Below, piece by piece: positions 6,889-57,957 of a stretch of DNA of 64,000 bases; positions within the stretch are counted from its first letter, which is position 1; every line of letters begins with the position of its first letter. The notes under the pieces were generated by a model. That model was not told where the DNA came from. It made no database searches and saw only the letters and a list, made by a program, of their open reading frames with translations. The stretch comes from Sorangium aterium. GTDB taxonomy: Bacteria; Myxococcota_A; Polyangia; Polyangiales; Polyangiaceae. The stretch lies in assembly GCF_028368935.1 (NCBI RefSeq), contig NZ_JAQNDK010000003.1:1426001-1490000 (forward strand), read 5' to 3'. Both the position numbers and the translations under genes were made by a program.

Positions 6889-7746
6889 ATGCCCTCCCCG
6901 GACAAGAGCTCCCCCGATCGCCCGAGCGCCGGCCCGCCCTCGAGCGAGCTCAGGGATCTCGCGCCGGAGGCGTCCGGCGTCGCCGCGCTCGGCGCCGCCG
7001 CGCTGTCCCTCTTCCGGTCGGCGCGCGAGCTCTACTCGGTATTCGTGAGCACGCTTTACTACTGCGTGAAGGGGCGCCGCGAGCCGGGCGCGGTGCTCCT
7101 CCAGATGTACGAGATCGGCAACAAGTCGCTGTTCTTCCTGACGGTCGTGATGGGCTTCATCGGGATGATCATGGTCTTCCAGGCCGGCCAGCAGGCGAAG
7201 CGGGTCATCCCGGATCTGACCATGCTCGGCGCGACGTACCTCGAGCTGCTCGTCCGCGATCTCGCCGCCTCGATCGCCGCGCTGATGCTCGCCACGCGGG
7301 TCGGCGCGGGCATCGCCGCCGAGATCGGCTCGATGGTGGTGACCGAGCAGGTCGACGCGCTCCGCATGTGCGCGGCCGATCCGATCGACTACCTCATCAA
7401 GCCGCGGTTCATCGCGAGCGTCCTCATGACCACGTGCCTCATCGTCTGGAGCGCCGCGGTCTCCTTCGCCACCGGGATGATCACCGCGTACAGCATGTTC
7501 GACGTCAGCCCCGAGACGTTCATGAACGTCAGCCTCGTCGACGCGGGTGACCTCGCGACCGGCCTCGCGAAGTGCGTCGCCTACGGCGCCGCGATCCCGG
7601 TGGTCTCCGGCCACTCCGGCCTGTCGACCTTCGGCGGCAGCGAGGGCGTGGGTTGGGCGACGACGCGCGCGGTCGTGAACTCCTCGCTCGCGGTCATCGT
7701 GCTCAACATGCTGATCTCGGCGGCCGCTTTCCTGATCTTCCGCTAG
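6889..7746 (+). CDS. mlaE: MlaE-family ABC permease, second copy
   Basis: A 285-residue second MlaE permease immediately after the first. It keeps the coupling motif GSMVVTEQVDALRMCAADP and the conserved YLELLVRDLAASIAALMLA region, and it lacks the long Pro-rich N-terminus of its neighbour. The two copies are clearly diverged, so this is not a recent duplication. It should pair with the first permease, with the MlaF ATPase encoded on the other strand just downstream, and with the MlaD-like MCE protein beyond. The stop lies 27 bases from the end of the convergent mlaF. Confidence 0.9.
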   Translation: MPSPDKSSPDRPSAGPPSSELRDLAPEASGVAALGAAALSLFRSARELYSVFVSTLYYCVKGRREPGAVLLQMYEIGNKSLFFLTVVMGFIGMIMVFQAGQQAKRVIPDLTMLGATYLELLVRDLAASIAALMLATRVGAGIAAEIGSMVVTEQVDALRMCAADPIDYLIKPRFIASVLMTTCLIVWSAAVSFATGMITAYSMFDVSPETFMNVSLVDAGDLATGLAKCVAYGAAIPVVSGHSGLSTFGGSEGVGWATTRAVVNSSLAVIVLNMLISAAAFLIFR

Positions 7747-7773
7747 GCGGCCCCGCCGCGCCGCGCCGGCGCC

Positions 7774-8514
7774 TCACTCGATCGGCCCCTCGGCGCTGCC
7801 GGTGATGAACTGCTGCACGACCGGGTCCGGCGAGCCCTGGAATGCCGCGCGATCCCCGAGCAGGCGGACGAGGCCCTGATAGAGCATGACGATGCGGTCG
7901 GCGATCGTGAAGATGCTGACGAGGTCGTGGCTCACGACGATGCTCGTCACGCCGAGGGTGTCGCTGAGCTCGCGGATCAGCTTGTCGACGCGCCGCGCGC
8001 TCACCGGGTCGAGGCTGGTGGTCGGCTCGTCGAAGAGCACGTAGCGCGGGTCGAGCGTGAGCGCGCGGGCGATGGCGACGCGCTTGCGCATCCCGTCGCC
8101 GAGCTCCGGCGGGAAGCGGTCCCCGAACTCGCGCATATGCACCTGCTCGAGCCGCCGCCGCGCCTCCGCGAGCGCCTCCTTCGGCCTGAGCCCCTTGTGC
8201 TTGCGGAGCGGGAGCGCAACGTTCTCGGCGCACGTCATCGAGTCGAACAGCGTCGAGTGCTGGAACACCATCGCGCACTTCATCCTCACCGGGTACATCC
8301 GGGCTTCGTCGAAGCGGCTCACCTCCTCTCCGTCCAGCCAGATCTCCCCGCCGTCCGGATAGAGCAACCCCACGAGGTGCTTGATGAGCACGCTCTTCCC
8401 GACCCCCGACTGCCCGATGATGAAGAACACCTCGCCGTCCTCGACGTCGAACGAGACGTCCTTGAGGACATCTTTGGGGCCAAAGGATTTCCTGACATTC
8501 CGGAACGAAATCAT
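7774..8514 (-). CDS. mlaF: MlaF-type ABC transporter ATP-binding protein
   Basis: A 246-residue ABC ATPase. Walker A is GQSGVGKS, Walker B is YVLFDEPTTSLDP, and the switch His is in VVSHD. The signature stretch reads ELGDGMRKRVAIARAL where most MlaF proteins have LSGGM, a departure also seen in some Mkl/MlaF branches. It powers lipid movement through the MlaE permeases. The gene is on the opposite strand from both mlaE genes and from mlaD, converging on mlaE and divergent from mlaD. The whole transporter therefore sits in 3.8 kb but needs at least two promoters. Confidence 0.9.
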   Translation of the reverse strand: MISFRNVRKSFGPKDVLKDVSFDVEDGEVFFIIGQSGVGKSVLIKHLVGLLYPDGGEIWLDGEEVSRFDEARMYPVRMKCAMVFQHSTLFDSMTCAENVALPLRKHKGLRPKEALAEARRRLEQVHMREFGDRFPPELGDGMRKRVAIARALTLDPRYVLFDEPTTSLDPVSARRVDKLIRELSDTLGVTSIVVSHDLVSIFTIADRIVMLYQGLVRLLGDRAAFQGSPDPVVQQFITGSAEGPIE

Positions 8515-15927: not shown

Positions 15928-16027
15928 GCGGGTTGCCAGGCTCGCGCCGAGCGGGTTGCCAGGCTCGCGCCGAGCGGGTTGCCAGGCTCGCGCCGAGCGG
16001 GTTGCCAGGCTCGCGCCGAGCGGGTTG
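15928..16027. repeat. 23-bp direct tandem repeat (four full copies plus a partial)
   Basis: Four perfect copies of a 23-bp unit starting GCGGGTTGCCAGG begin at 15928, 15951, 15974 and 15997, and eight bases of a fifth copy begin at 16020. The copies abut without spacers. They lie in the 340-base divergent region between the receiver-kinase gene and lnt, so they could affect either promoter. Identical copies suggest recent expansion, or a variable-number repeat. Confidence 0.92.
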
Positions 16028-55808: not shown

Positions 55809-56712
55809 GCGCTCCCTCCAGGCGGCCTCGGGCGATCCCCTCCCCGGGGCTCGCCGCGCGCATCGACGGCGCGCTCGCGCTCTTCGCGCCCCTTCCCTTC
55901 GCAGCCATCGACGCGTGGACACAAGGCCCCTTCGCGGGCCGCTCCTGCGCGTTGCTTCCACGTCGTCCAGTCCACCGCGTTTTTTTCGCTCGAATCCATC
56001 GGTCTTCGCGCCCGACTATCGACCAGGACGGGACGTGACGCGCCGTCGGCTGGTTCGACGATGGGCCTGACGCTCTCCGGTGCGAACCGCGAGCGCATGT
56101 GCTCCGAAGGCGCAGTTGCGGGAATCTCCTCATCACCCTTCCGCTGGAGATCCGGGCGGACGACACGATCGCGCGAGCCTTCATGAAGCCTCGTTCGCCG
56201 CGCGCCGCGCCTGCCGCGCCGCGATCGCTCGCGGCAGGCGCCTGGGTGCTCCGCGCCATCCGATCCATCTCCGTTGATCGAGCTGTTCGCGTTCCAGGAA
56301 CCGCCACCGCAGCCTCATGAGGACAGGGCCTCCCGCGGCCGGTCCTCGCCAGCATCGCAGTCCGGCGCGCTTGCGCTGCTCCGCGCTCGCCAGCGAGAGC
56401 GATGACGCTGCGCCCGGCGCGCGGGATCAGCGAAGAGCGCGCGGCCCCACCGGAGGGCGCGGGGGCCGGTGAGCGAGCGCCTCGCGCCCTCGCGGAAGGA
56501 GCGCGCGATGCTGCCCTCTCCGCGCGCCGACGGCCTCGCAGAAAGCGTCCATGGTGTCTCAGGTGTCCTTTATGGGGTAATCGACATCACCTCCCGAACA
56601 CCACACATGATCGTGCGGCGGGGGATTTCAGGTCCCCGCGCGTCAACGCTCGTCGTCATGACGGGCGATGACTCCATTCGACATGGATTGATGTGCACAG
56701 GAGAACGGGAAC
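55809..56712. other. Intergenic region after the ilv-leu operon
   Basis: About 900 bases. Short open frames on both strands look non-coding. A hairpin (GGCCC-CTTCG-CGGGCC type, about 55926-55942) occurs, and a run of seven T follows at about 55980, but they are 38 bases apart, so a terminator is doubtful. The lower-GC stretch near 56560-56610 may hold the promoter of the next gene. Confidence 0.45.
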
Positions 56713-57234
56713 ATGAGCCAATTGACGAAGTTCGCATCGCTCATCGCCCTCTCGACGGCCCTCTCTGCGGCAGGTTGCATGGCCGAGGCGACGACGTCGG
56801 ACGCGCCCACCGACGACGTGATGAGTGAGACCGACGAGGCGAAGCAGGCGTTCCAGGCCGAGACGGATTCCGCTGATCAGGAGTCGAGCGCGAATCCGGC
56901 GATGGACGAGAGAGCGACGGACCCCAGCGCAGCAGGCGCCAGCGCGCCGGCCCCCGGCGCGCCCGACGTCGGCGCCGTGGACCCCGGCTCGACGAGCGAG
57001 AAGCCCGATGCGGCGCGCTGGTGGGGCGGCGGCTGGGGCTTCCGGCCCGGCTGGGGCTGGGGCGGCGGCTGGGGCTTCCGGCCCGGCTGGGGCTTCCGGC
57101 CCGGCTGGGGCTGGGGCGGCGGCTGGGGCTTCCGGCCCGGCTGGGGCTGGGGCGGCGGCTGGGGCTTCCGGCCCGGCTGGGGCTGGGGCGGCTGGGGCGG
57201 CGGCTGCGGCGGCTGGAGCGGCTGCGGCTGGTAG
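56713..57234 (+). CDS. Putative lipoprotein with Gly/Trp-rich FRPGWG repeats
   Basis: A 173-residue protein. A signal segment ends in the lipobox SAAGC (Cys22). An acidic, Ser/Asp/Glu-rich linker (23-100) follows, then about 70 residues made almost only of Gly, Trp, Phe, Arg and Pro, with five copies of FRPGWG joined by WGGG-type links and ending GGCGGWSGCGW with two cysteines. It should sit on the outer membrane by its lipid. The aromatic Gly-rich tail is like sticky or phase-separating repeats. No known family; the function is unknown. Confidence 0.8.
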   Translation: MSQLTKFASLIALSTALSAAGCMAEATTSDAPTDDVMSETDEAKQAFQAETDSADQESSANPAMDERATDPSAAGASAPAPGAPDVGAVDPGSTSEKPDAARWWGGGWGFRPGWGWGGGWGFRPGWGFRPGWGWGGGWGFRPGWGWGGGWGFRPGWGWGGWGGGCGGWSGCGW

Positions 57235-57957
57235 CGTGCCGCGCTCGCCATCACGGCTACCCGCATGACGGGGAGCCCTGCTGACGCTCGCTCCGCGCCC
57301 CCTGCGGCGCCGCCGCGGCTCGGTCCTCGCCATGGCAAGGCGCCGGCAAGGGGGTCATGAGCGGACGATGAAGCGACGGGCGCCCTGACGGGTCGAGGCT
57401 CCCTCACGCGGCCGCGGAGAGAGCCTCGACCGCCACCACGGTGCCCCCGGATCGCCCGCACGGGTCTGCGAGCGGTCCGGGGTACTCCGGGATCAGGCGT
57501 CGGCCTCGGCGAGGCTCGGGACGCGGCGTATGAGGAAGCGGGGCCTCATGCAGCACCACCACATGACCCCCATGGAGGTGAGATAGAAAGCGAAGAGGCA
57601 CATGAGCGACGTCGTCGCCCCGCCCGTCGCCTTGATCGAGGCGCCGACGGGCGATTCGCTTCCCTGTCTTCTCTCAAAACGCATCATCGTCCGGATTCCA
57701 CTCGGTAATCAAAGTGGGCATCGGTCCTCCCCACCGAGATCGGGGCGCTGCCGCCATGAACCATGGCGAATCGGAGCGGCCGAGGCCCGTTCAACCCACG
57801 CTCGACATCGGTCCTCATCTCCTGCATTGAATGATCCAAAATCGCAGCTCCTCGTGCGTTTCCGCGCCGTTTCGATGCGCTACTACCGTGCAGCGTCGAT
57901 ACCGCGCGGTCGCCGGCGCGGCGGAGGCCGCGCGCGCGGCGCGACGGCGCGCTGCCT
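57235..57957. other. Convergent intergenic region, mostly without genes
   Basis: About 720 bases between the Gly/Trp-rich lipoprotein gene and the end of the kinase gene. It contains one possible small gene (see 57493-57687) and a somewhat lower-GC part at 57670-57860. No terminator with a T tract was seen. Confidence 0.45.
57493..57687 (-). CDS. Possible small membrane protein
   Basis: A 64-residue open frame with a central hydrophobic segment (SLMCLFAFYLTSMGVMWWCC) followed by basic residues. It starts at an ATG in a lower-GC patch. Hydrophobic Trp/Cys content is unusual for a random GC-rich frame, but there is no clear ribosome site and no recognised family. A shorter start at an internal Met is possible. 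Speculative. Confidence 0.25.
   Translation of the reverse strand: MMRFERRQGSESPVGASIKATGGATTSLMCLFAFYLTSMGVMWWCCMRPRFLIRRVPSLAEADA

Follow-up and report, generated by a model that had tools for sequence, protein, structure and literature searches.

A repeat-tailed lipoprotein of Sorangium, possibly a new type of sticky envelope protein

The window analysed here, a stretch of 64,000 nucleotides from the soil myxobacterium Sorangium aterium, contains a gene for a small, probably membrane-anchored lipoprotein that ends in a repetitive, aromatic tail (Table 1). The lipobox, the acidic linker and the five FRPGWG units that an earlier note had described at 56713-57234 agree in coordinates and unit count with the sequence and the list of open reading frames (ORFs); to these we add the C-terminal cysteine cap CGGWSGCGW and conserved DNA upstream of the gene. 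Other frames of the same interval hold overlapping ORFs, and the choice of frame is supported by synteny, by the ribosome-binding site and by the resemblance, at the protein level, of signal, junction and cap to those of four other strains.

Table 1. Positions of the gene, its parts and its upstream DNA within the window
Feature	Position	Strand	Details and basis
Conserved upstream element (probable promoter and leader)	56535..56712	+	five-strain alignment, mean column identity 88%
Ribosome-binding site AGGAG	56699..56703	+	sequence; conserved in five-strain alignment
Repeat-tailed lipoprotein gene	56713..57234	+	173 aa, ATG start; sequence, ORF list and orthologs
Signal peptide and lipobox SAAGC	56713..56778	+	acceptor Cys22 at 56776-56778; sequence; Cys in 4/5 strains
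Acidic linker	56779..57009	+	77 residues, 18 acidic and 3 basic; junction PDA at end
Gly/Trp/Phe/Arg/Pro tail	57010..57231	+	74 residues
Five FRPGWG units	57040..57183	+	DNA spelling of each: TTCCGGCCCGGCTGGGGC
C-terminal cysteine cap CGGWSGCGW	57205..57231	+	cap identical or similar in ce26, So0008-312 and ceGT47; one cysteine in So0157-2

The protein begins with an n-h-c signal peptide of the signal-peptidase-II type, assigned by eye together with its lipobox cysteine; the lipobox reads S-A-A-G-C22 and thus carries alanine at position -3, which is usually leucine. The five units lie within residues 110-157, where Tandem Repeats Finder gives arrays with scores of up to 238 (57030-57148) and 199 (57030-57184). 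The tail, 47% Gly and 24% Trp with 6 Arg, was defined as starting after the last acidic residue, so that its freedom from acid holds by definition; the order of acidic before aromatic and cationic residues is independent of this cut, and shuffling the mature sequence 2000 times never reached it. Both cysteines fall in the last nine residues, and their joint presence in the last 12 has a chance probability of about 0.006. Structure prediction from seven aligned sequences returned only the signal helix (mean pLDDT 46.3, pTM 0.14). Pfam and NCBIfam gave nothing above their cutoffs, and the only PDB sequence matches, four p53 entries at E 0.24-0.31, were rejected. A search of the open-access literature, with subscription papers mostly outside its scope, found nothing on the protein or its design.

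Homologues with signal and repeat, whose lack was to speak against the earlier note, do exist. Four of the five other Sorangium genomes carry an ortholog, namely S. cellulosum So ce26 (G002), So0008-312 (G004), So ceGT47 (G003) and So0157-2 (G001), and further proteins share the design; none was found in the fifth genome, G005, which is 89% complete and in 890 contigs. A scan of genome contigs with the gene heads only gave the names of these four strains, an earlier contig scan having returned none. All four orthologs lie downstream of leuB, between it and a kinase-dus pair whose interval in ce26 also includes further genes, with their orientation relative to leuB unchanged; leuB, kinase and dus are 87-95% identical between strains. 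Judged by this comparison the reading frame is a genuine gene, since four S. cellulosum strains hold its ortholog in the same interval behind a conserved element of about 180 bp. Its own genome holds no second match at E 0.05 (profile A5), and plasmid records hold none at E 1e-3. The lipid anchor proposed earlier is predicted for the four strains with a lipobox cysteine and not for the So0157-2 ortholog, where AAGVAVAA replaces the lipobox, one cap cysteine is present and the form of the protein resembles a type-I secreted protein. With the lipobox cysteine and one cap cysteine gone, either anchor and cysteine pair would be dispensable or this allele is decaying. A transporter gene follows 3' of the ortholog in all four strains. 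Its counterpart in the window (57496-57757, minus strand) is a remnant of a major facilitator superfamily (MFS) transporter that keeps only the parts matching residues 1-40 and 421-470 in ce26; in the four other strains the gene is complete or almost complete, and the window genome has an internal deletion.

The upstream element is 77-86% identical between the window and the four other strains, about equal to the gene head (73-80% of compared codon positions), and no alignment between strains could be seen by eye in the DNA further 5'. It occurs at full length once per genome in five of the six Sorangium genomes searched and is absent from G005; the remaining matches in the six genomes are short, at E 0.002 or worse. 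A structured RNA is not supported (no Rfam match, covariation term 0.08), and because the element folds no better than its shuffles (z -1.07; 35 of 200 fold equally well) promoter DNA is the likelier reading. A scan for sigma-70 promoters and terminators found none, such a scan being uninformative in this phylum.

The repeat itself evolves quickly. The change in copy number that the earlier note had expected is borne out, with 5 RP units per tail in the window, 4 in ce26, 16 in So0008-312, 2 in So0157-2 and 4 in ceGT47, and the unit changes as well, taking the forms FRPGWG, YRPWGFGGWG, FGFRPWGWGGG and HRPWGGWGGWGGW. Within a strain the units are identical in DNA in the window (5/5) and in So0008-312 (15/15) and nearly so in the other three, so that each array looks homogenised by recent duplication. 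The head appears weakly constrained, with dN/dS point estimates of 0.55-1.12 over ten strain pairs. In G059a, a protein from another genus, all seven RP occurrences of the tail read RPGWG in seven different DNA spellings; since one unit is spelled in seven ways, RPGWG is, to judge from its codons, under protein-level selection at least there. Overall, selection seems to keep composition and cap more than the sequence of the unit. A comparison of strains is thereby a natural experiment: the repeat is rewritten and homogenised from strain to strain in a setting of retained anchor, acidic block and cap, and composition rather than sequence may be what is selected. A repeat array noticed in passing in So0157-2 (L014 and L016, G001:C1:11727950-11728540) is open on both strands, as DPGWAT on one and VGRPTW on the other.

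A search of myxobacteria for lipoproteins with such GW-type tails, as had been proposed, yielded 25 proteins that share the design, from 13 of the 108 Polyangiaceae genomes, found by iterated profiles and reading of frames; the list was assembled by profile and eye, and the counts that follow describe this list rather than all lipoproteins. A cysteine at the lipobox position is present in 24 of the 25, tryptophan is the last residue in 18, and 14 end in the pattern C-x(1-6)-C-x(0-5)-end, which the other 11 lack. In each of 18 proteins, 0 or 1 of 2000 shuffles reach the observed segregation of charge and aromatics, and 10 of the 18 contain just two cysteines in the mature part, both of them among the final 12 residues. 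Tails vary by genus, with RPGWG, GGGWG or GYG in g37, WGGFG and extra cysteines in g39, GYGG in g32, GGYGGFH and GPG in g6 and GPGRF in g44. Pfam gave weak matches for 15 proteins of similar design (best E 0.0024; GRP at 0.0081 in one). G059 and G064 carry a second, tandem lipoprotein beside the RPGWG one, with two C...C motifs at its end; these tandem proteins (L052 7745-8638 and G064:C183 about 7400-8200) have Gly/Tyr/Pro repeats and share the conserved end CDA[FY]GNCFSRR...C[GN][PA]FGC[TV]YW.

Candidates dropped before the count of 25 comprise lipoproteins with other tails (L026/L095, Pro/Tyr; L129, Ala/Pro/Val; L122) or with globular or other mature parts (L004, L031, L097, L098/L123, L099, L115, L116, L120, L121, L131, L132, L135, L136 and L137), the repeat proteins L015 and L023, the exported TTPIQDL proteins L021 and L063, and matches in other frames. 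A lipoprotein of G062 proved enzyme-like on reading and was rejected; L134 and many weaker matches of one search fall outside the matches read. Outside Polyangiaceae the design was not recognised in a shallow phylum sample of 377 genomes, a weak absence because only nine candidates per genome were scored; eight places in seven of these genomes that matched at E 0.001 lacked the design on reading, and three further weak places from the first phylum search were rejected likewise. Under a profile built from the five Sorangium heads, 11 of the 17 heads that come from other genera outscore every one of their own five shuffles, and a profile built without G072 (A2) matches the G072a head at E 3e-4. 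Since only five of the 17, each of them a G072 head, score above the strongest of eight heads taken from unrelated lipoproteins (21.6 bits), the grouping across genera is best read as a shared design, common descent being for the most part not shown.

Among known systems, the low-complexity domains of RGG or FG type, built of aromatic residues, arginine and glycine, resemble the tail in being Gly-rich, with regularly spaced arginines and aromatics and no predicted fold; the protein described here differs from them in being, to judge from its sequence, exported, usually lipid-anchored and rich in Trp, and in having an acidic block as well as a cysteine cap. The glycine-rich structural coats of eukaryotes, for example chorion or cuticle proteins, likewise combine Gly/aromatic tails, cysteines and quickly changing repeats; Pfam showed no homology beyond the weak matches given above, and a search of the open-access literature found nothing relevant. 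The precursors of the ribosomally made peptides (RiPPs) GrrA/OscA1 (NCBIfam TIGR04260) share with the design an export-like N-terminal leader followed by a Gly/aromatic repeat tail, but the window protein does not match this family; among the collected proteins only G051a clears the family cutoff, and narrowly so, with 32.1 bits where 31 are required. In surface lipoproteins of Bacteroidetes, S(D/E)3, K(D/E)2 or QA(D/E)2 adjoins the lipid cysteine (PMC6222051). Acidic residues follow the lipid cysteine in both cases, but the adjoining export motif is absent from the window protein, which has CMAEATTSDAPTDD there and continues after Cys22 as MAEATTSDAPTDD.

We read the window protein as a probable low-complexity Gly/aromatic envelope lipoprotein with an acidic block and a cysteine cap. 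Because sister strains keep the design and not the exact repeat, it may belong to a type of sticky envelope protein that has escaped study. Our preferred reading, held tentatively at a probability of about 0.4, is that of an exported and usually lipid-anchored envelope protein, intrinsically disordered and with segregated charges, in which the tail would self-associate and disulfides would fix it. The parts observed are the signal peptide, the lipobox, an acidic followed by an aromatic/cationic Gly-rich block, the strain-homogenised repeat and the cap. The lipid would anchor the N-terminal end to the outer membrane; the linker would space the tail and, being acidic, may pair with cationic tails on adjacent molecules; Arg, Trp and Phe would act as stickers in a Gly/Pro spacer, allowing tails to self-associate or to bind envelope polysaccharide; and oxidation of the terminal cysteines could form loops or cross-links that fix the assembly. 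The losses in So0157-2, the head dN/dS values and the 11 collected proteins without the terminal cysteine pattern count against such a lipoprotein.

The same parts could serve other ends. Anchored by its lipid in the outer membrane, the protein might turn its cationic aromatic tail towards peptidoglycan or another periplasmic polymer and act as a structural spacer rather than a surface adhesin. A lipobox cysteine without an adjoining export motif such as S(D/E)3 is consistent with this periplasmic location, as is the long linker, which is predicted to be disordered; the Pfam and NCBIfam searches matched no known wall-binding domain, and we consider a tether of this kind unlikely. Alternatively, the gene might encode a precursor whose acidic propiece is cut near the conserved PDA junction to release a cationic Trp/Arg/Pro/Gly peptide, possibly modified as in RiPPs, that acts on other cells. 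A junction [PAN][DE]A precedes the tail in all five strains and recurs as PDA or SDA in G059a, G059b and G064, and both the secreted-like form in So0157-2 and the marginal GrrA/OscA1 score of G051a point the same way. Against it, the radical-SAM motif C-x3-C-x2-C, the modifying-enzyme signature scanned for in 12 stretches that do not include the flanks L049-L051, is absent from ORFs of more than 220 codons in ten of them, including the 64-kb window and 14.5 kb around G051a; one match is radical-SAM-like (L071), but other genes separate it from the G072a gene, at a distance of about 5 kb. DAQWRG, tried as a wider junction motif, is not enriched either, with 17 matches in 108 genomes and 27 for the reversed pattern, and design members among its matches occur only in G059 (two) and G064. 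Release of such a peptide ranks behind a periplasmic tether and is quite improbable.

Least probable of the readings considered is that DNA slippage lengthens a GC-rich array in which a dispensable lipoprotein happens to end, the tail having no function of its own. Identical units within strains, differing in kind and number between them, and a weakly constrained head are what such slippage would leave; the persistence of tail composition, frame and cap across strains, the seven synonymous RPGWG spellings of G059a and the conserved upstream element all argue against it. The preferred reading of a self-associating envelope lipoprotein has a wider version, which we judge improbable too, ahead of neutral slippage and behind the precursor: a lineage-restricted, often multi-copy class of coat proteins, lipid-anchored and charge-segregated chains with cysteine-capped Gly/aromatic tails, in which a repeat dialect homogenised per strain and diverging across strains and genera would let like tails assemble into a disulfide-locked matrix or mediate strain-specific cell-cell adhesion. 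Myxobacteria build multicellular structures and, to our knowledge, the proteins responsible for the cohesion of cells and matrix have been little described for Sorangium and its relatives. Should the tail prove to self-assemble, bacteria would have here an equivalent of condensate or coat proteins.

Some further sequences came to light in these searches. The exported Sorangium proteins L063 (G001, minus strand) and L021 (G004) lack a lipobox and combine a TTPIQDL leader with a repeat tail, FGYRP x7 in G001 and HGYHG/HGH in G004. Many Polyangiaceae lipoproteins, among them L026/L095, L031, L004 (minus strand), L120 and L122, carry an acidic stretch after the lipobox (e.g. DEALGQTDEAL) before unlike mature parts, possibly a sorting or spacer element. 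Elsewhere in the window, at 15928-16027, lies a perfect tandem array of 4.3 copies of a 23-bp unit with 100% matches.
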